Below, piece after piece: positions 1,197 to 24,657 of a stretch of 33,578 bases of DNA. The first letter of the stretch is position 1. Every line of letters begins with the position of its first letter. The stretch is from Phycisphaerae bacterium (GTDB lineage: Bacteria > Planctomycetota > Phycisphaerae > Sedimentisphaerales > Anaerohalosphaeraceae). The stretch is taken from assembly GCA_018052735.1 (NCBI GenBank), contig JAGPMT010000031.1, positions 1 to 33,578 of the forward strand, read 5' to 3'. The notes beneath the pieces are model-generated. The model made no database searches. It was not told where the DNA came from and saw only the letters and a list, made by a program, of their open reading frames with translations. A program made the translations under genes and the position numbers.

Positions 1197-2126
1197 ATGG
1201 CCGCCGACGAGAAAAATGATGTGTTAAATGTTGTTCAACCGTCCTCTTCACCGCCTCTGGAGACAGTCAGGCGTAAACGGTTGAGCATGCAGGCTGAAAA
1301 CGCTTCTCTCGTCCAACAATCGATAAAGCCAAGGTTGCGGCTGGAAAAAGTTCAGCCGCCTGTTGTTGATACAACCCTGCTATGCCGTTATGAGCTTAAA
1401 TATAGAATTACGGAATCCAAAGCCCGTGCAATCGCCCAATACGTCAGTGCTTTTATTCATCCGGACCGATATGCCAAAAACAAGCCGGGTAATGAATATT
1501 TGATTTCCAGTCTTTATCTGGATACACCCGCGCTGACCCTGTGCAACGAAACACTGCAGGGCAAAAAGAACCGGTTTAAGCTGCGAATCCGCGGCTACGA
1601 CGATAATCCTCTTTCTCCCGTATTTATGGAAATCAAGCGTCGAGCGGCCAATGTCATTGTGAAAAGCCGTGTGGGTGTGGAAAAGAGGGCTTTGGGCGAT
1701 ATTTTGGCCGGCAGGTATATCCCAACTCTAACCTACGCCAAAGATCGGGATGCATTTAATCAGTTTATGATGTATGTGGCCGCCCTGAATGCAAGACCGA
1801 TCGTCTTGGTCCGTTATATGCGGCAGGCCTTTGAAGGCGATTCAGACAATCGGGTTCGCATCACTTTTGACCGGCAGCTGAGTTTCAAAACTACCCGCCA
1901 GCCTGTTGTTACAGTCAATGGTTCAGGGTGGACTTCCGTAGCAATGGATTTTGTGGTATTGGAGATAAAATTTACGTCGCGTTATCCGCTTTGGCTGAGC
2001 GAGATGGTCAAAATGTTTGACTTAAAGCAGTCGTCGATGTCCAAATACGTTTCTTCGGTTCAGCAATCCTGCCAGCTGGGTTATTGTTCGCCGGAGGCAG
2101 GTTCGATATTGTGCTATGATGAATAA
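1197..2126 (+). CDS. Polyphosphate polymerase with VTC domain
   Basis: This 309-aa protein belongs to the VTC family, whose characterised member in yeast vacuoles (Vtc4) makes polyphosphate from ATP in a tunnel lined with basic residues. After a low-complexity N-terminal tail of about 60 residues, the domain runs from about residue 65. Visible hallmarks are YELKYRI near 67-73, the basic strand RFKLRIRGYDD near 126-136, FMEIKRR near 143-149, VRITFDRQLS, and the late VVLEIKFTSRYPLWLSEMV. The basic and acidic residues expected for phosphate and metal binding are therefore present. No membrane segment is seen, so it is probably cytoplasmic and may dock on the next gene product. It overlaps the DUF4956 gene by 11 bases, indicating tight co-expression. 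The AUG lies about 13 bases after a GGGGGA, so the exact start is uncertain. Confidence 0.85.
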   Translation: MAADEKNDVLNVVQPSSSPPLETVRRKRLSMQAENASLVQQSIKPRLRLEKVQPPVVDTTLLCRYELKYRITESKARAIAQYVSAFIHPDRYAKNKPGNEYLISSLYLDTPALTLCNETLQGKKNRFKLRIRGYDDNPLSPVFMEIKRRAANVIVKSRVGVEKRALGDILAGRYIPTLTYAKDRDAFNQFMMYVAALNARPIVLVRYMRQAFEGDSDNRVRITFDRQLSFKTTRQPVVTVNGSGWTSVAMDFVVLEIKFTSRYPLWLSEMVKMFDLKQSSMSKYVSSVQQSCQLGYCSPEAGSILCYDE

Positions 2127-2817
2127 TATACTGGAAATTATAGAAAATGCTTCGGCACACAGTCTGAATTATTCAATGCAGAGCGTTCTGCTGTCGCTGC
2201 TGCTGGCATTTGTACTGGGGCAGGCCCTCGCGTGGCTGTACTATTTTACCCACAGCGGTCTGTCTTATTCGCGTTCATTCGTGCAGTCGCTTATTCTCAT
2301 TACAGTGATTGTGGCGATGGTAATGTCCACCATAGCAGGCAGCTTTGTGGTGGCCGTGGGGCTGATGGGGGCATTATCGATTATTCGTTTCCGCAATATG
2401 ATAAAAGATACGCGGGACATCGCCTTTATTTTCTGCTCGCTGGTTATTGGAATGGCCTGCGGCTCTCAGCGGTATTCCATAGCCGTTATCGGAACGGTTT
2501 GCATTGCACTGATTATTTTATATCTGCATGTATCGGATTTCGGAACCCATACACCGCATAATGCCTTTCTGCGGTTCCGCTTTAACGGCCATTTTGGCGC
2601 TGACCATCCGATTATGCGGGTACTGAAAAAATTCTGCGGCAATTTTACTCTGATTTCTGCCCAAGATGGCGATTTCGGCAATCAGGATGTCGAATATGCT
2701 TATCAGGTTATGATTAAAAACGTTTCCAAAAATGAGGCAATGCTGGCTGAACTGCAGCAGATCGAGGGCGTCAAGAACATCAGCTTGACGGTTCAGGAAC
2801 AATTGCTGGAAATTTAA
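2116..2817 (+). CDS. DUF4956 family membrane protein
   Basis: This 233-aa integral membrane protein has about four hydrophobic segments (roughly residues 20-45, 55-80, 80-100 and 105-140) and a soluble C-terminal part of about 85 residues. The family signature GALSIIRFRN, followed by DTRDIAFIF near residues 90-110, is clear. DUF4956 proteins are commonly encoded next to VTC polymerases, as here, where the genes overlap by 11 bases. Their biochemical role is not established. An inference is that the protein is the membrane partner or conduit for the polymerase product. The C-terminal domain resembles a small alpha/beta sensor-like fold. The function is unknown, but family membership is firm. 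Confidence 0.82.
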   Translation: MMNNILEIIENASAHSLNYSMQSVLLSLLLAFVLGQALAWLYYFTHSGLSYSRSFVQSLILITVIVAMVMSTIAGSFVVAVGLMGALSIIRFRNMIKDTRDIAFIFCSLVIGMACGSQRYSIAVIGTVCIALIILYLHVSDFGTHTPHNAFLRFRFNGHFGADHPIMRVLKKFCGNFTLISAQDGDFGNQDVEYAYQVMIKNVSKNEAMLAELQQIEGVKNISLTVQEQLLEI

Positions 2818-2836
2818 TGGGGGGTGTTAATGCACG

Positions 2837-3982
2837 ATGCGGCGAATTAAATCAGGACGATTATTGAATAAAACAATTCCGGTGTTTGTGTGGCTTGCGG
2901 CACTTGGCGGAGTGACAGTGTTGTTTATCCAGCAGGGAAGCCGTGTGGATTTCAACGGCATCGTTATCGGTCAGGAACAAGCCATTACGGTTGCGGAGAA
3001 CGGCTATATCAAGGCCCTTCCGGTACGGCTGTATGAAGAAGTAAAAAAGGGTGACACGCTGGCGGTTGTCCAAATCAGTACAATTGGAAATGATATGTAT
3101 GATACGACACTCATCGATGCCCGCAGGGCAACTGCACAGGCCGAGTTGGAGCGGCTCAAAGCCGAACTAAAAGCCGCAGAAGCCCAGTTGGAGGCCGAAC
3201 AGATAGACCGGCAGCGGGATATCTTCGACATACAGCGACGGCTGGCCGTCGATGTGGAGCGATCGCGAATAAGCATTCTGGAAGCCAAAACCGAACTGGA
3301 ACCCAATCGTGCTCTACTCAAAGACCTTGAATTGGAAGTCCAGATTGCCGAAGACCTTTACAAGGATAATGCCATCGAATCCTACGAAGTTCAGAAAATC
3401 AAAAGCCAATGCGAGGTGACGCGAAAAACTGTCGAGTCCTATCAGCAGCTCCTTGCACAGGCCGAGGCGGACTATGCCCAAGCACAGCTTCGCCTGGATG
3501 AGTTTATGCAGTCGGCGGCATTGCCCTCTGCAATCGCCAAAATCCTTGACCCGCTTGCCAAAGCCATCACTGTGCAGGAAAAAGTTCTCGAGGAAATTAT
3601 TCGTCCGACTGATACGGTTATTTTGACGGCACCGTTTGACGGCGTCGTGAGCAGTCTGTTCTATAAACCCGGTCAGGCAGTGATGCGGGATATTCCGATA
3701 ATGACTATCGTCAAACCCGCACCGGATTATGTCGCCGCTTGGGTACCGCAGGAAAAGATTCCCCTGCTGCATGTAGATATGCCCGTTCAAATCGTTACCC
3801 GCCGGACACCCCAGCAGGCTATTACATCCCGCATTACGCATATCAGTCCTTCGCTGGAACTGCTGCCGGAGCGGTTGTGGCAAAGCCCCACGCTTCCGGA
3901 ATGGGGACAGGTGATTATTATCCCTCTGCAACCGGGAACCAAACTTGTACCCAATGAGATTGTAGGCGTAAAAGGCCTGTGA
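2837..3982 (+). CDS. HlyD-like periplasmic adaptor (membrane fusion) protein
   Basis: This 381-aa adaptor has one N-terminal membrane anchor (about residues 12-31), a first half of the biotinyl-lipoyl-like domain (ENGYIKALPVRLYEEVKKGD), and a long coiled coil (about residues 90-230, rich in A, E, Q, L). The second lipoyl half follows (TAPFDGVVSSLFYKPGQAV, about 262-280) with a beta-barrel C-terminus. This is the layout of HlyD/EmrA adaptors that bridge an inner-membrane unit to an outer-membrane channel. A GGGGGGTG ribosome-binding site sits before the ATG at 2837; an earlier ATG at 2830 hits a stop after six codons. The gene follows DUF4956 by 19 bases and overlaps the TolC-like gene by four. 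No ABC, MFS or RND pump gene is in this operon. Confidence 0.85.
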   Translation: MRRIKSGRLLNKTIPVFVWLAALGGVTVLFIQQGSRVDFNGIVIGQEQAITVAENGYIKALPVRLYEEVKKGDTLAVVQISTIGNDMYDTTLIDARRATAQAELERLKAELKAAEAQLEAEQIDRQRDIFDIQRRLAVDVERSRISILEAKTELEPNRALLKDLELEVQIAEDLYKDNAIESYEVQKIKSQCEVTRKTVESYQQLLAQAEADYAQAQLRLDEFMQSAALPSAIAKILDPLAKAITVQEKVLEEIIRPTDTVILTAPFDGVVSSLFYKPGQAVMRDIPIMTIVKPAPDYVAAWVPQEKIPLLHVDMPVQIVTRRTPQQAITSRITHISPSLELLPERLWQSPTLPEWGQVIIIPLQPGTKLVPNEIVGVKGL

Positions 3983-5649
3983 AAGCAATTCCAGTACTAT
4001 CTGCCATAAATACACGGCACAAGGCCGGCTGGGCAGTGTTCCTGCTGACAGGAATGCTGTTGGTGTGGGGCTGCGGACCCAGCCCTGAAGAGGCCGCTTC
4101 CGCTGCGGATAAGCGAATTTACGGTGCTATTGAAAAAGCTACAAAGAAGGCGGGTTTAGAGCAGAATGACTATTACCGGCTGGATGATCCCAATCAGCGC
4201 GAGGCGGTGCGGGCTGTGCTGCCGCAGAATAGTGTTTTGACTCTTACACAGGCAGCAGCGATGGCTGTAACGTACAATCGTGACTACCTTCTTGAAAGAG
4301 ACAATTTGTTTCAGCTGGCCAGCGGGGTTACAGATATTCAGCATCTTTACGAAATCATTCCGGGCGGCAGTATTCAGGAAGACTACCTCCGTCAGGATGG
4401 GCAGGAAACCCTTGGCACTGCCGGCGGGCTGGGGCTGGGACTGCGTCAGCTGCTGGCTGCAGGGACACAGGTTGGAGCGAATCTGAGCCTCACGTGCTTT
4501 GACCTTCTTTCAGGAGGAGACGGCAGCATTAAAAGCGGCTTTGCCAGCGTTTTTTCGGCCACCGTTACCCAGCCGCTGCTGAGGGGGGCCAGCCGTAAGG
4601 CCGTGCTGGAGACCCTGACGCAGGCCGAACGCGACTTGCTCTATCAGATTCGCTATTTCAATCGCTATCGCAAGACATTCCTTGTTACTGTTCTCCAAAC
4701 CTACTATGAAACGCTTCAGTTCTACGACCAGATGAACAATGCACGCCGCTATTACCTGACGCTTGCAGAAATTCACCGGCAAACCCAAAAACAGGCCGCT
4801 GTGGGCAGAGTGCCGCTGTTTGAAGTAGAGCAGACCTATCAGGATCAGCTTGATGCGCTGAATACCTATATCGACCTCCGCAACGATTATGGTCAAATGC
4901 TGGATACATTGAAAACAATGCTGGCTATTCGCCCTGATACGGAGCTTGTGCTGGACATACAGGAACTGGAGGCCCTGAAGGCATCCGATTTTGCGGAGCT
5001 GAATTTCTCTGAAGAAGCGGCGATTCAGGCGGCCGTAAACCAGCGTCTGGATTTGGCCAACGCGGCCGACCGTGTGCTGGACGCCCAGCGTCATGTCGAA
5101 ATTGCAGCAGAAATGCTCGGAGCCGATTTGGCACTTATCGGCACAACGTCTGTTGGGTCATTTGGCGCTTCACCCGATGACTTGCGCCGCACCGAAGATA
5201 TGTACAACTTGTCGCTGCGTATGGACCTGCCTCTGGACCGCAAGGCGGAACAGAACCGCTACCGTCTGACCCTTGCCGAATTAATGCAAAACCAGCGGAC
5301 CCATCAGGGAATCACCGATCAGGTGATTCAGGAAGTCCGCTCGGCATTTCGCAATCTTCGGACAGCACATGAGCAGTACCGCTTAGCTCTGAATGCGCAG
5401 GAACTTGCCCAAAAACGGATGCACAACACCCTGCGACTCCAAAAAGTCGGACGTGCTAATATGCGTGATGTGCTGGATGCTCACGAGGATTACTATGAGG
5501 CGCAAGAAAACGCAACCGATGCTTTAGTCGAATATGCTGTTGCGGCATTGAATCTCTATCTGGCAACCGATACGCTTAAAGTCCAGCCCGATGGCCAGCT
5601 TCTAAAGAGTGCCGACAGCTTCGGCAATTCAATGCCAAACAATAATTAG
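3979..5649 (+). CDS. TolC-like outer-membrane efflux lipoprotein
   Basis: This 556-aa protein is of the outer-membrane factor family, forming a trimeric channel through the outer membrane and periplasm. A signal peptide ends in a lipobox with Cys32 (LVWGC), so it is probably lipid-anchored. Two repeats of long helices with short beta segments are visible; the TQPLLRG motif near residues 198-204 is typical of one beta-barrel entry. The GTG start at 3979 overlaps the adaptor stop (GTGA), showing translational coupling. Its adaptor and the VTC/DUF4956 pair are its only operon partners. The N-terminal 80 residues after the Cys are an extra polar extension compared with TolC itself. Confidence 0.85.
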   Translation: MKAIPVLSAINTRHKAGWAVFLLTGMLLVWGCGPSPEEAASAADKRIYGAIEKATKKAGLEQNDYYRLDDPNQREAVRAVLPQNSVLTLTQAAAMAVTYNRDYLLERDNLFQLASGVTDIQHLYEIIPGGSIQEDYLRQDGQETLGTAGGLGLGLRQLLAAGTQVGANLSLTCFDLLSGGDGSIKSGFASVFSATVTQPLLRGASRKAVLETLTQAERDLLYQIRYFNRYRKTFLVTVLQTYYETLQFYDQMNNARRYYLTLAEIHRQTQKQAAVGRVPLFEVEQTYQDQLDALNTYIDLRNDYGQMLDTLKTMLAIRPDTELVLDIQELEALKASDFAELNFSEEAAIQAAVNQRLDLANAADRVLDAQRHVEIAAEMLGADLALIGTTSVGSFGASPDDLRRTEDMYNLSLRMDLPLDRKAEQNRYRLTLAELMQNQRTHQGITDQVIQEVRSAFRNLRTAHEQYRLALNAQELAQKRMHNTLRLQKVGRANMRDVLDAHEDYYEAQENATDALVEYAVAALNLYLATDTLKVQPDGQLLKSADSFGNSMPNNN

Positions 5650-7651: not shown

Positions 7652-9466
7652 TCAGGATTGGTACTTGCTGGTAACATAGACCGCTTGGGGAGCCAGCAGA
7701 TTGGGCAACAGCCGAAGCGGTAGTGTGCTTTTGCCCAGCGGAATCTTCCGCTCAATGCGAATATCCAGTTCCGCACAGAAGTGTTCAAAGTCCTTCAATG
7801 ACAAAAAGTGTATGTTGGGCGAGTTGTACCATCGGAATGGAAGCTGACGGGTTTGGGGAGCAATGCCTTTGAACATCAGCTGGACACGGCAGCGCCAGTG
7901 GGCAAAGTTGGGAAAGCTGACAATCACCCGCCGTGCGACACGATGCAGTTCCAGCAGCACCTGTTGGGGGTCGCACAGCGTTTGGATAGTCTGCGACAGC
8001 ACGGCATAATCAAACGCTTCATTCGGATACATCTCAAGGCCTCTTTCAATATCCCGGTGAATCACCGACAGTCCTCGCTGGATGCAGTGAATGACAAGGT
8101 CTTCATCCAGTTCTACCCCCTCGGCACAGGCATTTTTGGTTTGCGCCAGACGGCTCATCAGTTCCCCATCGCCGCAGCCCAAATCCAAGATGCGGCTGTT
8201 TGACTCAATCAGAGAATCAATCAGCTCATAATCCACCCGAATGCGTTTTGGATGATCGGCCATTTTCTCCTGCAGACCTGCCGGGGATTCGAACGTTTCA
8301 ATCCGGCGGGCCGAGCGTCTCTGCTGCCATGTCGAATCGACAAATCCCTGTATAATCCGCCCCAGCTTGTCCGATTCAAGAAGAAATGCATCATGGCCAT
8401 AGGTTGAATAGATATTGCAATAAGTGACATCTTTGCCTTCGGCTCCAAGGGCCTCGACAATTTCCTCGGACTGTTTAGGCGTAAAAAGCCAGTCGCTGGA
8501 AAAACTGACAATCAGAAACCGCCCGGCAGAATTGGCAAAGGCCTGACGCAATGAACCATACTCCCGCATCAGGTCAAAATAGTCCATTGCTTTGGTAATA
8601 TATAAGTAGCTGTCAGCATCGAACCGCTCGACAAATGATTGTCCCTGATAATCCAAATATGTTTCTACCGAAAATTCGGAATCAAAATCATATTTATAAT
8701 CGCTCGAATCCCGTAAATCACGGCCGAACTTGTATCGCATCGACTCTTCAGACAAATAGGTAATATGGCCGATCATCCGAGCAATAGCCAATCCCCTTGC
8801 AGGGAGTTGGTGTCCGTGATATTGACCGTCATTAAAATTCGGGTCGGCCAAGATTGCATTGCGTCCAACGGCATCAAATGCAATCGACTGGGCATTAAGC
8901 CGCGTAGTAGAAGCAATACATATTGCCGCATCTGCAAATTCCGGATAGGAAACAGCCCATTGCAGAACCTGCATCCCCCCCATTGAACCGCCAATAACCG
9001 CCAAAAGATGGGATATATTCAGCTTTTCCAAAAGAAGTTTCTGAACTTTTACCATATCTTCGATGGTTATTATCGGAAATGTTAAACCGTAGGGCTGACC
9101 GGTAGCCGGATTGATATCCGAAGGCCCTGTTGTACCGCTGCAGCCGCCTAAGACATTGGAGCAGATAACAAAATATTTGGATGTATCGATCGGTTTGCCG
9201 GGGCCAATCATAATATCCCACCAGCCGGGCTTGCGGTCATCAGGACTGTTGAAGCCGGCAGCATGGGCATCGCCGCTGAGTGCATGACAAACCAAAATAG
9301 CATTGTCTTTTTGCTCATTCAGGCAGCCGTATGTTTCATAAGCTACATCAATCGGCCCGAGCGTCTTGCCGCATACCAGCTGCAGCGGCGAATCGGCTTC
9401 AACCACACGCAGTTTTTGAGTTTGGACAATGCCTACCGAATTTTTTATGCTGCTTTCCATAACCAT
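7652..9466 (-). CDS. metX: Homoserine O-acetyltransferase fused to MetW-like methyltransferase domain
   Basis: Residues 1 to about 400 are MetX, an alpha/beta-hydrolase that acetylates L-homoserine with acetyl-CoA, the first committed step to methionine by the sulfhydrylation route. The nucleophile is Ser161 in GGSMGGMQ, with Asp325 (SSDWLFTP) and His358 (YGHDAF) completing the triad. LGGCSGTTGPSD is also a family motif. From about residue 425 comes a MetW domain with the SAM-site motif ILDLGCGDGE. MetW is normally a separate gene next to metX and is needed for full MetX activity in some bacteria. I chose the ATG at 9466; another is at 9460, and upstream frame extends to 9556 but shows no homology-like sequence. 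The matching sulfhydrylase MetY is about 22 kb away in this window. Confidence 0.9.
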   Translation of the reverse strand: MVMESSIKNSVGIVQTQKLRVVEADSPLQLVCGKTLGPIDVAYETYGCLNEQKDNAILVCHALSGDAHAAGFNSPDDRKPGWWDIMIGPGKPIDTSKYFVICSNVLGGCSGTTGPSDINPATGQPYGLTFPIITIEDMVKVQKLLLEKLNISHLLAVIGGSMGGMQVLQWAVSYPEFADAAICIASTTRLNAQSIAFDAVGRNAILADPNFNDGQYHGHQLPARGLAIARMIGHITYLSEESMRYKFGRDLRDSSDYKYDFDSEFSVETYLDYQGQSFVERFDADSYLYITKAMDYFDLMREYGSLRQAFANSAGRFLIVSFSSDWLFTPKQSEEIVEALGAEGKDVTYCNIYSTYGHDAFLLESDKLGRIIQGFVDSTWQQRRSARRIETFESPAGLQEKMADHPKRIRVDYELIDSLIESNSRILDLGCGDGELMSRLAQTKNACAEGVELDEDLVIHCIQRGLSVIHRDIERGLEMYPNEAFDYAVLSQTIQTLCDPQQVLLELHRVARRVIVSFPNFAHWRCRVQLMFKGIAPQTRQLPFRWYNSPNIHFLSLKDFEHFCAELDIRIERKIPLGKSTLPLRLLPNLLAPQAVYVTSKYQS

Positions 9467-9598
9467 AGTATACCGCCGTTTTCCAAAAAAAACAGAGGTT
9501 TTGAAGACCAAAAATTTGAGCGCTGTACCGCTAATACCATAATCTATGCTCGCCAAGCAAATGGCTCTTTTTTACGATACAATTAATCTGAAAAAGAG

Positions 9599-18154: not shown

Positions 18155-18808
18155 ATGTCAAAGCGTAAAGACGGTTTGGAACGTCGAACATTACTGTTAG
18201 ATGCCGCCACCAAAGTATTCGCAGAAAAAGGCTTTCATAATACTACTATTCATGATATCTGCAATGAAGCCCATTCCAATATTGCCTCGGTAAACTACTA
18301 TTTTCGTTCGAAAGAAAATCTCTATGCAGAGGTCTGGCACAATGCCTTTCAAAAAGCTCTTGACAAATACCCGCTGGATGGAGGGCTCGCCCCCAATGCC
18401 GGACCTGTTGAGCGGCTGAAAGCACTTATCCGCTCGCATTTGCATCGGATGCTGGATGCGGGAACGCTGGGGCATGCCGGCCAGATTCTCCTGATGGAAT
18501 TGGCCAATCCGACCGAGGCGATTGAACTGGTCAAAAATGATGCCATCAGTCCCCTCCGCGAACATATTCGCGGCATAATTCGGGATTTGCTAGGAAATGA
18601 GGCCACAGACAATAAGGTCAACTTTTGTGCCATGAGCATTATCCATCTCTGTTTCGGCATTGGCCTCAAACGCGGGAAATTTCCTGCTTTTACAGCTTCC
18701 ATGAGTAAAGAATCGCTTTTTGAAGCCCTTGTGGAGCATATCACCCTCTTTTCCTTGGGAGGCATTAATGCTGTGAAAGAGAGTCAAGATGTATTTGAGA
18801 AATCATAA
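18155..18808 (+). CDS. TetR/AcrR family regulator, CecR-like
   Basis: This 217-aa repressor-type regulator has the TetR N-terminal helix-turn-helix at about residues 13-60 (LLDAATKVFAEKGFHNTTIHDIC through NIASVNYYFRSKENLY). The C-terminal ligand domain resembles the DUF1956/CecR type (FQKALDKYPLDGG, LMELANPTEAIELV, GIGLKRG). E. coli CecR controls export-related genes. Here the efflux genes follow directly, 38 bases downstream, so it probably represses this operon in response to an unknown drug-like ligand. The start ATG at 18155 has only a weak ribosome-binding site (AGGGAAAA about 15 bases upstream). Confidence 0.86.
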   Translation: MSKRKDGLERRTLLLDAATKVFAEKGFHNTTIHDICNEAHSNIASVNYYFRSKENLYAEVWHNAFQKALDKYPLDGGLAPNAGPVERLKALIRSHLHRMLDAGTLGHAGQILLMELANPTEAIELVKNDAISPLREHIRGIIRDLLGNEATDNKVNFCAMSIIHLCFGIGLKRGKFPAFTASMSKESLFEALVEHITLFSLGGINAVKESQDVFEKS

Positions 18809-18846
18809 CAATTATAGTTTGCCTCTGTCTGACGGAGGAATAGATT

Positions 18847-20259
18847 GTGCCGATTGAGAGCATAAAGAAAGCCGTATTGCTTGTGTGGACGGCTGGGCTA
18901 CTGGGATGTGCGCCTATTGAGCCGCGAGGTTTCAAAATGCCGGCCGCTGCGCCGGAAGCGTTTTCCCGTGATGGAACCGAAGCCCTGTGCCAGCGCTGGT
19001 GGGAATCGCTGAATGACCCAAATCTGAACCGCCTAATAGAAACGGCATTGGAGAATAATTTTTCCATCCGCTCAGCGTGGGATCGTCTCAGTCAGGCCGA
19101 GCAGACAGCCCGGATTGCCGGAGCCGGCCTTTTCCCCCAAGCCGGTTACAGCACACAAGCACAGCGCAGCCGGACTGAAGCAAGCGATATTGTGAATTAT
19201 TCTTCAGCGTATTCAGCAGGGGCATCTATTTCATACGAATTGGATTTTTGGGGGCGCATTCGCTCCTTGCGTCAGGCAGCGGTTTTGGATGCCCAGGCAG
19301 CAGCAGATGACATACAGACAGCGGCAATTACGCTCAGTGCCGCCGCTGCCAAGACATGGTATCAGCTGGCAGAGGCCAAGCAGCAGGCTGGCGTCATTCA
19401 AAAACAGCTGGAGATTAATGAAAAAGTGCTGGCTATTATCTTAACCCAGTTTGCACAGGGTCTAGTCGGGGCTTCAGATGTGCTGCGGCAAAAACAGCTG
19501 GTTGAATCCAGCCGCGGACAAGCTGTTCAAAATCAGGAAACACTGGTTTTATTGCAGCATCAATTGTCTGTACTGTGCGGGGAAAAACCCGGTCTGGTAT
19601 GGACAGACACGCCAATGGAGCTGCCGGAACCGGCCGGTCTGCCGGCGATAGGACTTCCGTCGGATGTTTTACAGAGACGGCCTGATGTGCAAAAAGCTTA
19701 CAAGGCGGTACAAGCGGCAGACTTGCGGCTGGCTGCCGCTATTGCCGACCAGTATCCGTCTATCGGGTTGTTCGCCGGCGCTGAAACATCTGCCCAACAA
19801 ACGAAAGACCTGTTTGAAGACTGGCTGGCCAATCTGGCAGCCGACATCACAGGGCCGCTGTTCGATGCGGGTCTCCGCAAAGCAGAAATTGCACGCTGGC
19901 GGGCAGCGGTTTCGCAGAAACTTAACGAATACGGGCAGACAATCCTGACGGCATTAAAAGAAACAGAAGATGCGTTGGCACAGGAAGACTATCAGCGCCA
20001 ATACATGCGGAGTCTGCAGGAACAGCTACGGCTGGCCCGGCAGGTATACGAAAGAAACCGCGATAAATACCTTCAAGGTCAGATGGATTATCTGCGTGTA
20101 CTCGAATCACTGATATCGCTGCAAAGCTTGGAACGGCAGGAGTTGTCGGCAAGGCGTATTTTGCTGGAACGGAGAATCGACTTATACCGCTCAATCGCCG
20201 GCAGCTGGCCTATAGATAGACCCCAACAGACAGCCATTGTCTATGAGCAATTTGAATGA
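18847..20259 (+). CDS. Outer-membrane efflux lipoprotein (OprM/NodT type)
   Basis: This 470-aa outer-membrane factor is the exit channel of the tripartite pump. A signal peptide ends in a lipobox with Cys21 (AGLLGC), so it is probably acylated. RWWESLNDPNLNRLI followed by ENNFSIRSAWDRLSQAEQTARIAGAGLFPQ is the standard start of this family, and LPSDVLQRRPDVQKA near residue 275 is the conserved mid-protein motif. The start is GTG at 18847, with GGAGGA upstream. The order here (channel first, then adaptor and permease) is less common than adaptor-permease-channel. Confidence 0.92.
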   Translation: MPIESIKKAVLLVWTAGLLGCAPIEPRGFKMPAAAPEAFSRDGTEALCQRWWESLNDPNLNRLIETALENNFSIRSAWDRLSQAEQTARIAGAGLFPQAGYSTQAQRSRTEASDIVNYSSAYSAGASISYELDFWGRIRSLRQAAVLDAQAAADDIQTAAITLSAAAAKTWYQLAEAKQQAGVIQKQLEINEKVLAIILTQFAQGLVGASDVLRQKQLVESSRGQAVQNQETLVLLQHQLSVLCGEKPGLVWTDTPMELPEPAGLPAIGLPSDVLQRRPDVQKAYKAVQAADLRLAAAIADQYPSIGLFAGAETSAQQTKDLFEDWLANLAADITGPLFDAGLRKAEIARWRAAVSQKLNEYGQTILTALKETEDALAQEDYQRQYMRSLQEQLRLARQVYERNRDKYLQGQMDYLRVLESLISLQSLERQELSARRILLERRIDLYRSIAGSWPIDRPQQTAIVYEQFE

Positions 20260-20272
20260 GAGGAAATACACG

Positions 20273-21544
20273 ATGAATACTTCTCAATCAGCGCCGCCCG
20301 GAACGCCGAAGCATTCGCCAATCTGGAAGAATTTAGGAGACATTGCCATCCGCTATCTGATTCCTGCGGCCATTATACTTTTGGGCATCGGATTTACCAA
20401 ACACCAGATGGACACCCGTCCGCAGGCAAAACTGGAAAAACCCGCCCTGCAGGCACGGCTGGTTGATGTCCAGACTGCGCAGCTGACAAACATCACGGCT
20501 ACAGTATCTGCGATGGGCACTGTCGTCCCGGCAAAAATGACCACACTTTATCCGGAAGTGTCGGGCGTGGTTCTTTCGCTCAGCGAGGAGGTTATACCGG
20601 GAGGCCTTATTGAAGCCGGACAAACACTGATTCAAATCGATTCAAAAGATTACGAAGCTGTCGTAGCCCAGCGGCAAAGTGAACTGGCAAGGGCACAGCT
20701 GAATCTGAAATTGGAATACGGCAACCAGACTGTTGCCCGACTGGAATATAAACTGCTGGAAGAAGCCTTAGCAGAACAGGACCAGGAATTGGTGCTCCGC
20801 AAGCCGCATTTGGAGGAGGCACAAGCCGCTGTCCAAGCGGCCCGGGCGGCTCTTGATAAAGCACAATTGGATGTGCAGCGGTGCACAATCAAATCGCCGT
20901 TTAACGCCATTATCCAGAAAAAGCACATCGATCCGGGCACACGGGTTTCGCCGTCCACCCCCCTGCTGACGCTGCTGGGAACAGATGAATACTGGATTGA
21001 AATCCTTGTTCCAGTTCATCAGCTTCGCTGGATAGCAATTCCGACGGAAAATTCTCAACAGGGTTCACGGGTCATGGTATTCAACAATGCCGGTTGGGGA
21101 GAAGGGATTTTTCGGGAAGGCAGAGTTCTTCGCCTGCTGGGGCAATTAGAAGAACAGGGACGAATGGCCCAGCTGCTGGTTTCCGTCAGCAATCCGCTGG
21201 GACTGTCAGACAACGTATCAGCACTGCCGCAGCTGCTGATCGGCTCGTATGTGCGGGTTGAAATTGAAGGACGGCCGATTGAATCGGTAATTGAAGTCAG
21301 GCGGGACTGGCTGCGGGACGGCAATACGGTCTGGATTATGAATGACCAGAATAGAATGGAAATCCGGCCGGTGCAGATTATTTTCCGGAATGCGGATGCT
21401 GTTTATGCCACAGAAGGAATCAAGGCCGGAGAGCGAATTGTTACCACAGATATTTCAGCACCGGTAGAAGGAATGCCGCTCCGGCTGAACAATGATCCTG
21501 AAACTGCTGTTTTGCAAACCCCAGACAGGGAGGCCCACCTGTGA
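20273..21544 (+). CDS. RND efflux periplasmic adaptor subunit
   Basis: This 423-aa membrane fusion protein has one N-terminal membrane anchor (about residues 27-45), a lipoyl half-domain (VSGVVLSLSEEVIPGGLIEAGQ), a coiled-coil hairpin (about residues 115-195), a second lipoyl half (CTIKSPFNAIIQKKHIDPGTRV) and beta-barrel domains. It links the RND permease to the outer-membrane factor. I chose the ATG at 20273, preceded by GAGAGGAA; an in-frame ATG at 20237 lies inside the preceding gene without a ribosome site. The stop overlaps the permease start (GTGA). Confidence 0.92.
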   Translation: MNTSQSAPPGTPKHSPIWKNLGDIAIRYLIPAAIILLGIGFTKHQMDTRPQAKLEKPALQARLVDVQTAQLTNITATVSAMGTVVPAKMTTLYPEVSGVVLSLSEEVIPGGLIEAGQTLIQIDSKDYEAVVAQRQSELARAQLNLKLEYGNQTVARLEYKLLEEALAEQDQELVLRKPHLEEAQAAVQAARAALDKAQLDVQRCTIKSPFNAIIQKKHIDPGTRVSPSTPLLTLLGTDEYWIEILVPVHQLRWIAIPTENSQQGSRVMVFNNAGWGEGIFREGRVLRLLGQLEEQGRMAQLLVSVSNPLGLSDNVSALPQLLIGSYVRVEIEGRPIESVIEVRRDWLRDGNTVWIMNDQNRMEIRPVQIIFRNADAVYATEGIKAGERIVTTDISAPVEGMPLRLNNDPETAVLQTPDREAHL

Positions 21545-24500
21545 GCGAAGCATTTTCAAGCACCGAAGTCCGGCGCGGGCTGATTGGGTGGATGACCTAT
21601 AACCGCATCACGCCGAATCTGATTATGCTGATTTTCCTGATTGGCGGTGCAATTCTTGCCTTTACCATTAAGCAGGAAGTTTTTCCCGAGTTTGACCTTG
21701 ATATAGTAACCGTCCGTGTACCCTATCCGGGGTCCAGCCCGGAAGAAGTCGAACAAGGCATTATTCTATCGATTGAAGAGGCAATTCGGGGATTGGACGG
21801 TATTAAGGAGATAACTGCTGTCGCATCCGAAGGTTTTGGAACTGTCACAGCTGAACTGCTGGAAGGTGCCAACCAGCAGAAGGTTTATCAGGATATCAAG
21901 CAGGAGATTGACCGGATTACTACTTTTCCGGAGGATGCGGAAGAGCCGGAAGTAAGTCTTCTTATGCGCCGGCGGGAAGTCCTGCAGATTGATTTATACG
22001 GGGATGTCTCGGAATGGGTGCTGCGGAGTGTGGCTGAACAGGTTCGGGACAGTTTGCTTCAAAGTCCGGGGATCACACAGGTTGAGCTGGATGGTGTGCG
22101 GGAGTATGAAGTACTTGTACTGATTAATCAGGAAACATTGCGGACCTACGGATTGACGCTGCAGTCGGTAGCCGCCAAAATCAGGGCCAGTGCGATTGAA
22201 TTGCCCGGAGGATACATTGAAACTGCCGGCGGAGATATCCTTCTTCGCGTCAAGGAACGCCGCGACTGGGCAGCTGAATTTGCGCGAATTCCAATTATCA
22301 CCTCAGCAGAGGGCTCCATTCTCTATCTGGAAGATATTGCTGAGGTTAAAGATGACTTTGCAGATACCGATCAGGCCGCATTTTTTAACGGATACCGAGC
22401 CATCGGCATCGAAGTCTATCGTATCGGCAAGCAAACGCCTATCGGCGTTTCCCAGGCAGCCCGTGCAGCAATGGCGCGGATTGAAACACAGCTGCCCCCG
22501 GGAGTTCACTGGGCTATCAACAGGGATGACGCTGATGTGTATCGCCAGAGGCTGGAACTGCTGCTGAAGAATGCCTTGTGCGGTCTGATTCTGGTGATAC
22601 TCTTGCTGGGTGTTTTTCTTGAATTTAAATTGGCGATGTGGGTTACGATGGGGATTCCCATTTCTTTCTTAGGAGCGTTTTTGTTTCTGCCGGCAATGGA
22701 CGTTACCATCAATATGATCTCGATGTTTGCATTTATCATTGCACTGGGAATCGTGGTGGATGACGCCATTGTTGTCGGCGAAAACATCTATGAATACCGG
22801 AATCGCGGGATGAACTATTTCCAAGCGGCTGTTCTGGGCGCACGCGATGTGGTAATGCCGGTGGGATTCAGCATTATTACCAACATTATCGCTTTTCTGC
22901 CGCTTTATTTTATTCCGGGATTTATCGGGAAAGTCTGGAAAGTTATCCCTTTGGTGGTCATCACGATTTTTACAATCTCTTGGATAGAATCCACCTTGAT
23001 TCTCCCCTCACACTTAGCCCACGCCCTGCCCCGCAGTAAAAACGCTGTCGCAGTTTTTCTGCACAGCCGGCAGCAGGCCTTCAGCCGGCAGTTTGAATGG
23101 TTCATTCGCACTATTTTCGGCCGTTTTCTGGATTTCTGCATTCGGTACCGGCAGATTACGGTTGCTGCATCGATTGCGGTATTCTTGATTATTCTCAGCT
23201 ATGTCTTAAGCGGACGCATTGGTATGATTTTAATGCCTCGTGTTGAATCCGATGTCTCGGTGGTAACAGCTGTTCTTCCATTCGGCAGTCCAATGTCAAA
23301 AGTAAAGGCTGTCAGCGACCTGCTGGCACAAAAAGCCGAAGGCATTATTGCTGAAAACGGCGGAGCGTTTTTAAGTAAGGGCATTTACAGCAGTATTACT
23401 GAAAACCAGGCACAGGTGCGTATCTATCTGACCGAACCGGAAGTCCGTCCAATCAGTACAAGCCGGCTGACACAGCTTTGGCGTGAAGCCGTCGGGCAGA
23501 TACCGGGTCTTGAATCGCTGCGGTTTGAATCCGACCGCGGCGGATTAGGTTCAGGAGCCGCTTTAACTGTCGAATTAAGTCATCGGGATATCACTATTCT
23601 GGATAAAGCCAGCTCTGAATTGGCTGATTTGCTGAGCAATTTTCCGAATGTCAAAGATATCGACGATGGCTATACGCCCGGCAAGGAACAGCTGAATTTC
23701 AAAATCAAGCCTGAAGGGCAGGCACTGGGGTTAACAGCCCAGGAAATCGCCCGTCAGGTGCGCAATGCCTTCTATGGCGCTGAAGCCCTGCGGCAGCAGC
23801 GTGGACGCAACGAAATACGGGTTCGTGTAAAGCTTCCGCCTGCCCAGCGCAGAAGTGAATATGATATAGAAACTCTGCTGATACGGACACCATCGGGTAA
23901 AGATGTCCCTCTCATGCAGGCAGCAGAAGTTGCACGCGGCCGTTCCTATACGAGCATTCAGCGGCGGAACGGCCGGCGTATCGTAACCGTAACCGCTAAT
24001 GTCGAACCGATTGATGACACCAATCAGGTCAAGGAAACGCTGGAAAGCAAAATTCTGCCGAATCTGTTAAAAGATTATCCCGGCTTAAGCTATGCATGGG
24101 AAGGACGGCAGCAGGATCTGAGCGAAGGAATGCAAAGCCTTAATATCGGCTTTCTATTTGCTTTGCTGGGTATTTATGCAATGCTGGCCATTCCTTTCAG
24201 AAGCTACTTTCAGCCAATTATCGTGATGATTGCAATCCCCTTCGGCATTATTGGAGCCATTATCGGTCATCTGCTGATGGGCTATTCGCTTAGTATGATG
24301 AGTATGATGGGCATCGTGGCACTGTCCGGCGTGGTGGTTAACGATTCTTTGGTGTTGATTGATTACGCCAACCGTCTGCGCAGCAGCGAAAACTTGCCTG
24401 CTATAGAGGCGATCCATCAAGCCGGGGTCCGGCGGTTTCGTCCTATTCTGCTGACGACACTGACGACTTTTGGAGGATTAGCACCGATGATTTTTGAAAC

Positions 24501-24657
24501 ATCGCGGCAGGCACGCTTTATGATTCCAATGGCAATTTCATTGGGGTTCGGTATTCTTTTTGCCACAGGAATTTCGTTGGTGCTTGTTCCCTGTCTTTAC
24601 ATCTACCTCGAAGATATTAAAACCATAATAAAGAAATTCTCAAATTCTTTCAATTAG
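21541..24657 (+). CDS. RND efflux permease subunit (AcrB-like)
   Basis: This 1038-aa inner-membrane proton-driven pump exports drugs or similar compounds. The first helix lies near residues 25-43, followed by a periplasmic loop of about 290 residues. Next comes a block of helices with the proton-relay pair Asp407-Asp408 in GIVVDDAIVVGENIYEY. A second loop and helix block repeat this layout, with GVVVNDSLVLIDYANRL in the position of AcrB helix 10; the lysine AcrB uses there is not evident, as in many RND proteins outside the HAE-1 group. The GTG start at 21541 overlaps the adaptor stop. The substrate cannot be predicted. Confidence 0.93.
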   Translation: MSEAFSSTEVRRGLIGWMTYNRITPNLIMLIFLIGGAILAFTIKQEVFPEFDLDIVTVRVPYPGSSPEEVEQGIILSIEEAIRGLDGIKEITAVASEGFGTVTAELLEGANQQKVYQDIKQEIDRITTFPEDAEEPEVSLLMRRREVLQIDLYGDVSEWVLRSVAEQVRDSLLQSPGITQVELDGVREYEVLVLINQETLRTYGLTLQSVAAKIRASAIELPGGYIETAGGDILLRVKERRDWAAEFARIPIITSAEGSILYLEDIAEVKDDFADTDQAAFFNGYRAIGIEVYRIGKQTPIGVSQAARAAMARIETQLPPGVHWAINRDDADVYRQRLELLLKNALCGLILVILLLGVFLEFKLAMWVTMGIPISFLGAFLFLPAMDVTINMISMFAFIIALGIVVDDAIVVGENIYEYRNRGMNYFQAAVLGARDVVMPVGFSIITNIIAFLPLYFIPGFIGKVWKVIPLVVITIFTISWIESTLILPSHLAHALPRSKNAVAVFLHSRQQAFSRQFEWFIRTIFGRFLDFCIRYRQITVAASIAVFLIILSYVLSGRIGMILMPRVESDVSVVTAVLPFGSPMSKVKAVSDLLAQKAEGIIAENGGAFLSKGIYSSITENQAQVRIYLTEPEVRPISTSRLTQLWREAVGQIPGLESLRFESDRGGLGSGAALTVELSHRDITILDKASSELADLLSNFPNVKDIDDGYTPGKEQLNFKIKPEGQALGLTAQEIARQVRNAFYGAEALRQQRGRNEIRVRVKLPPAQRRSEYDIETLLIRTPSGKDVPLMQAAEVARGRSYTSIQRRNGRRIVTVTANVEPIDDTNQVKETLESKILPNLLKDYPGLSYAWEGRQQDLSEGMQSLNIGFLFALLGIYAMLAIPFRSYFQPIIVMIAIPFGIIGAIIGHLLMGYSLSMMSMMGIVALSGVVVNDSLVLIDYANRLRSSENLPAIEAIHQAGVRRFRPILLTTLTTFGGLAPMIFETSRQARFMIPMAISLGFGILFATGISLVLVPCLYIYLEDIKTIIKKFSNSFN

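Follow-up and report, generated by a model that had tools for sequence, protein, structure and literature searches.

Gene content of the locus

The window, meaning the whole 33,578-nucleotide stretch of Phycisphaerae DNA that was analyzed, carries four tightly packed genes on its + strand. The first encodes a soluble VTC-domain polyphosphate polymerase with a TTM fold (1197-2126; PF09359, 142.5 bits versus a cut-off of 23). It is followed by a DUF4956 inner-membrane protein with four to five helices and a C-terminal ACT-like domain (2116-2817; PF16316, 55.6 bits versus a cut-off of 30.6), an EmrA/HlyD-like periplasmic adaptor, or membrane fusion protein (MFP; 2837-3982; HlyD_D23, 54.2 bits), and a TolC-like outer-membrane channel that is probably a lipoprotein (3979-5649; OEP, 86.2 bits). 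The open reading frames overlap by 11 and 4 bases and leave a single gap of 19. An ORF check reproduced exactly the coordinates and spacings given in a sequence-only reading of the same DNA, and its four gene identities were borne out by Pfam. Because the 5′ neighbor, an acyl-CoA thioesterase gene (451-942), lies 254 bases off, and because the genes 3′ of the operon are not co-oriented neighbors of a related kind, we consider the operon to consist of these four genes only.

A Pfam scan of the four proteins found no ABC, MFS or RND pump inside the operon. The earlier statement that no pump is present is therefore correct as far as the operon goes; elsewhere in the window, however, a complete RND tripartite set occupies 18155-24657 (a TetR/CecR-like regulator at 18155, a NodT-type OMF at 18847, an MFP at 20237 and an AcrB-like pump at 21541-24657, assigned by Pfam and NCBIfam). 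We rejected this pump as the partner of the operon's adaptor and channel, because an adaptor and a channel of its own lie beside it. Elsewhere in the window, on the − strand (7652-9556), a 634-aa frame apparently joins a homoserine acetyltransferase (MetX) to a MetW-like methyltransferase, as judged by eye only.

The polymerase and its putative membrane partner

A search with the VTC profile finds yeast Vtc4 (3g3q) at 1.6e-19, and zero transmembrane segments are predicted in the window's VTC protein. When residues were mapped by hand, applying an offset derived from full-length Vtc4 (185), the window's K68, R130, R132, K147 and R209 aligned with Vtc4 K200, R264, R266, K281 and R361, while R221, E256, K258, S282 and K283 aligned with Vtc4 R373, E426, K428, S457 and K458. 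In Vtc4, these residues form the tunnel site. The ten tunnel and catalytic residues are invariant or nearly so across 35 aligned sequences; Vtc4 R253 is not conserved and corresponds to T119 in the window's protein. Such an intact active site suggests that the VTC protein polymerizes phosphate. PPK1 was not found in the window's genome (96% complete), and the VTC protein is consequently that genome's main candidate for a polyphosphate polymerase, with PPK2 lying outside that search.

The TTM polymerase domains of the operon's polymerase and of the yeast VTC complex (Vtc4/Vtc3/Vtc1) are homologous and agree in these tunnel residues. Unlike the yeast complex, however, the four operon proteins contain neither an SPX domain nor the PF02656 transmembrane domain (hmmscan, E 0.001), and the membrane partner is a DUF4956 protein, which has no sequence match to PF02656. 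Its AF2 model (mean pLDDT 82) consists of four to five membrane helices and the C-terminal ACT-like domain. Foldseek matched the C-terminal part to ACT domains and to the MgtC C-terminal domains 7qa5 and 2lqj, many ferredoxin-like folds scoring alike. The membrane part received no useful fold match, as the match list was filled by ferredoxin-like domains on the C-terminal part, and PDB sequence searches using either the single sequence or the profile returned nothing useful.

A helical membrane part combined with a C-terminal ACT-like domain resembles the MgtC/SapB family, as do a weak match to a YhiD-type NCBIfam model and a PF02308 score of 26.2 bits, although this score falls below the family's cut-off of 31.4 and DUF4956 carries an RFRxxxKD motif of its own. 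Within the family's aligned sequences, R91-F92-R93 is invariant (41 diverse sequences). If the ACT-like domain is cytoplasmic, the RFRxxxKD segment would also face the cytoplasm. We propose that DUF4956 is an inner-membrane channel, occupying the place of the pump in a tripartite system; MgtC itself is not known to work with an adaptor.

The likeness to MgtC, a regulatory membrane protein, could instead indicate that the set works inwards, or that it is a phosphate or polyphosphate sensor or valve and not an exporter. We regard this as very improbable, given that the known roles of EmrA-like adaptors and TolC-like channels lie in export. The yeast VTC enzyme, moreover, pushes its polymer away from the cytosol (PMC12526157).

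An adaptor and channel linked to DUF4956

The adaptor has one N-terminal transmembrane helix and a long coiled coil (AF2 pLDDT 86), and its best fold matches are EmrA 8zal and 4tko. A search with the channel profile picks out E. coli TolC (2e-10), and the channel's lipobox Cys32 is invariant across 26 aligned sequences. The operon therefore has the periplasmic adaptor and TolC-like channel of a tripartite system. It resembles the EmrAB-TolC and HlyBD-TolC exporters in its EmrA-like adaptor fold and its TolC-like channel, but differs from them in that no MFS, ABC or RND protein lies within it or is conserved beside it, DUF4956 standing in the pump's place.

DUF4956 is present in 54 of 98 related genomes. 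Their loci were fetched and the genes mapped with profiles built in this analysis, two genes being counted as linked when co-oriented and no more than 3 kb apart. At the 68 DUF4956 places of the Sedimentisphaerales, VTC is linked at 67, the adaptor at 48 and the channel at 39 (locus counts include overlaps, as several contigs entered both as named Planctomycetota loci and among the other loci fetched; identical sequences were removed for the tree only). The HlyD_D23-type adaptor domain is rare, with five matches in the window's 2.9 Mb genome, three of them additional and outside the window, and yet the adaptor occurs at 48 of the 68 places; the arrangement is thus far above chance. The pairing of VTC with DUF4956, which the sequence-only reading had called known, is upheld throughout the order, and the continuation into adaptor and channel, which it had considered unusual, is not confined to one genome. 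Unusually long frames were searched by profile for proteins in which DUF4956 is fused to VTC, adaptor or CotH, and none matched two of the profiles.

Of the order's DUF4956 places without an adaptor, several sit at the end of a contig, and most of the remainder have a second architecture, CotH-VTC-DUF4956. This adaptor-less architecture (L089-L097 and others) carries a distinct group of DUF4956 proteins and coexists with the export-type operon in the same genomes. When the adaptor profile was run against 246 Planctomycetota genomes, it matched 24 places, 21 of which adjoin DUF4956. Planctomycetota outside the order frequently carry VTC-DUF4956-MFP with no adjoining channel gene. At L049, L053, L060 and L062, from two genera, a secretin-family gene follows VTC-DUF4956-adaptor on the same strand instead of a TolC-like gene; the secretin is possibly a replacement for the outer-membrane channel, or possibly a chance neighbor.

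Conservation across phyla and the missing pump

Among 80 named DUF4956 loci, a DUF4956-adaptor pair, mostly followed by a TolC-like gene, was found in Bacteroidota, Balneolota, Acidobacteriota, Spirochaetota, Fibrobacterota, Delongbacteria and Thermodesulfobacteriota. DUF4956-adaptor-channel sets are therefore present in at least eight phyla, that is, seven besides Planctomycetota, although the channel assignment is less certain than in Planctomycetota for the distant phyla, where its basis is an OEP match for L142, a marginal OEP match for L140, a profile-profile match (88%) and a weak match to a PDB outer-membrane efflux channel. The genes also appear in other orders, including DUF4956-MFP-OMF-VTC (L140, L146, L148), CotH-MFP-OMF-VTC-DUF4956 (L139) and VTC-DUF4956-MFP-OMF-CotH, and such variation points to function, and not inertia, as the reason for their linkage. 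Outside Planctomycetota, the adaptor is found at 18 of the 31 diderm loci but at none of the 22 from monoderms (Fisher P=3.7e-6, a value that is indicative only, because the sequences are related). Many diderms carry VTC-DUF4956-CotH without any adaptor.

On a 180-sequence DUF4956 tree (FastTree, midpoint-rooted for inspection, no support values quoted), adaptor linkage switches 6 times (97 sequences with, 83 without) and CotH linkage switches 30 times; one large adaptor-linked grouping covers several phyla. Within five genes of the 97 adaptor-linked DUF4956 genes there is no conserved polytopic, ABC, MFS or RND neighbor. Scattered polytopic or ABC genes do occur near 12 of these loci, but mostly on the opposite strand, indicating that no pump travels with the set. 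Consistent co-occurrence with a separate pump, the finding that the sequence-only reading had named as counting against itself, is thus not seen among the neighboring genes. Its suggestion that the adaptor and channel have DUF4956 as their inner-membrane partner is well supported by the conserved linkage and by the lack of a conserved pump, while a physical complex of DUF4956 and adaptor is hypothetical.

A TolC-like channel commonly works with pumps encoded elsewhere in the genome. The adaptor and channel might accordingly serve an ordinary pump encoded elsewhere, their place behind VTC-DUF4956 reflecting co-regulation only (for example, under phosphate stress), and the genome does contain the RND set as well as the three adaptor-domain matches that lie outside the window. 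We find this explanation unlikely: the nearby RND pump is already equipped, and the operon's adaptor is a dedicated subfamily tied to DUF4956, a tie that persists across many phyla and through reordering with no linked pump.

The cargo presents a harder choice. In L159, L163, L164, L166, L167, L173 and L183, all from Bacteroidota or Balneolota, DUF4956-adaptor-channel forms a three-gene unit without an adjacent VTC, and no VTC was found anywhere in three of these seven genomes, which are drafts. The cargo may therefore not always be polyphosphate. DUF4956, adaptor and channel could form a general pump-less conduit for another anion or polymer, with VTC a frequent regulator or phosphate supplier, and the ACT-like domain of DUF4956 suggests regulation by a small molecule. 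Against this stand the proximity of VTC at all but one of the order's 68 loci and in nearly all other phyla, the intact polymerase site, and the draft state of the VTC-lacking Bacteroidota genomes. We consider a non-polyphosphate cargo possible, though somewhat doubtful. The earlier proposal that polyphosphate is made and exported is strengthened on the side of synthesis by the intact VTC site and by the failure to find PPK1, and weakened by the three conduit-bearing genomes without VTC; export would be a prediction from gene content.

A proposed synthesis-driven export mechanism

In yeast, the VTC tunnel has its exit at the mouth of a membrane channel, and translocation of the polymer is coupled to its synthesis (PMC12526157). 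By analogy, the four-gene set most likely joins VTC-type, synthesis-coupled translocation to a tripartite conduit. In the mechanism that we propose, VTC would first make a phosphate chain from ATP at the cytoplasmic face, as its intact active site suggests. The growing polyanion would then be threaded into the MgtC-like DUF4956, with the RFRxxxKD motif presumably at the cytoplasmic mouth of the conduit, and polymerization would supply the driving force, as it does in the yeast VTC complex. In a third step, DUF4956 would dock to the EmrA-like adaptor and the TolC-like lipoprotein, a partnership to which the conserved linkage points, and these would carry the polymer through the periplasm and the outer membrane. 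Finally, and more speculatively, polymer outside the inner membrane would probably serve secreted CotH kinases, either as a phosphate donor or as a polyanionic matrix. The core of the proposal is the first three steps, namely synthesis by VTC, threading through DUF4956 and passage through adaptor and channel.

We give even odds (a probability of about 0.5) to the reading that the four genes form a dedicated, pump-less tripartite export machine, in which VTC drives a phosphate polymer through a DUF4956 conduit, perhaps to the benefit of CotH. A DUF4956 conduit driven by synthesis would explain both the absent pump and the dedicated adaptor subfamily. Likewise, the yeast principle with DUF4956 as the channel, extended in diderms, would explain why monoderms have VTC-DUF4956 without an adaptor. 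As in yeast, a membrane partner would move the polymer away from the cytosol (PMC12526157 for yeast), but the operon adds a periplasmic adaptor and an outer-membrane channel that the yeast complex does not have. The VTC-DUF4956-CotH sets of Gram-positive pel clusters share the same polymerase, DUF4956 and often CotH, whereas their hosts are monoderm and they have no adaptor or outer-membrane channel (PMC7112168).

In the open-access library searched, three papers name DUF4956 and none covers it together with VTC; we found there neither a report of bacterial polyphosphate export via a tripartite system nor a laboratory test of the four-gene set. On the proposed mechanism, DUF4956, a widespread membrane family, gains a testable role, and bacterial VTC enzymes gain a destination for their product. 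Adaptor-channel conduits may then be served by something besides ABC, MFS and RND pumps, and a pump-less mechanism, if proven, would constitute a new class of exporter.

CotH kinases as candidate users of the polymer

The commonest extra partner of VTC-DUF4956 loci is a CotH kinase, with CotH genes at 35 of the 68 loci of the order. There, the CotH proteins are often giant, with LTD, Fn3-associated or LamG domains. The loci analyzed carry 118 CotH ORFs, of which 100 have a hydrophobic N-terminus, versus 36% of other ORFs, and we conclude that CotH proteins are mostly exported in a Sec-like manner or anchored in the membrane on the outside. In Bacillus, CotH multiply phosphorylates a coat protein (PMC7821199), and Gram-positive pel clusters are accompanied by CotH, a polyphosphate polymerase and DUF4956 (PMC7112168).

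There is little ATP outside the cell for a secreted CotH kinase. If the proposed mechanism is true, it would give polyphosphate a dedicated route to the outside of the cell and might supply these kinases with phosphate. The full form of the proposal, a synthesis-driven polyphosphate exporter working through an MgtC/DUF4956-type channel and an EmrA/TolC-like conduit, whose polymer is used by extracellular CotH kinases, is offered tentatively.

The frequency of CotH genes at the loci, and the size of CotH proteins, would also fit a type I-like arrangement, in which the adaptor and channel secrete large CotH/LTD proteins and the phosphate for modifying them comes from VTC-DUF4956. This we disfavor as quite unlikely. 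With their mostly Sec-type N-termini, the CotH proteins can do without a type I pathway. The set also contains no ABC protein, and CotH lies beside VTC-DUF4956 in monoderms that have no adaptor or channel.

The linked, secreted CotH kinases, which lie outside the window, were missed by the sequence-only reading. The window's own genome has five CotH frames of 1398-2156 aa, on contigs C60, C40, C62, C29 and C46 (L099-L103), none of them near the operon.
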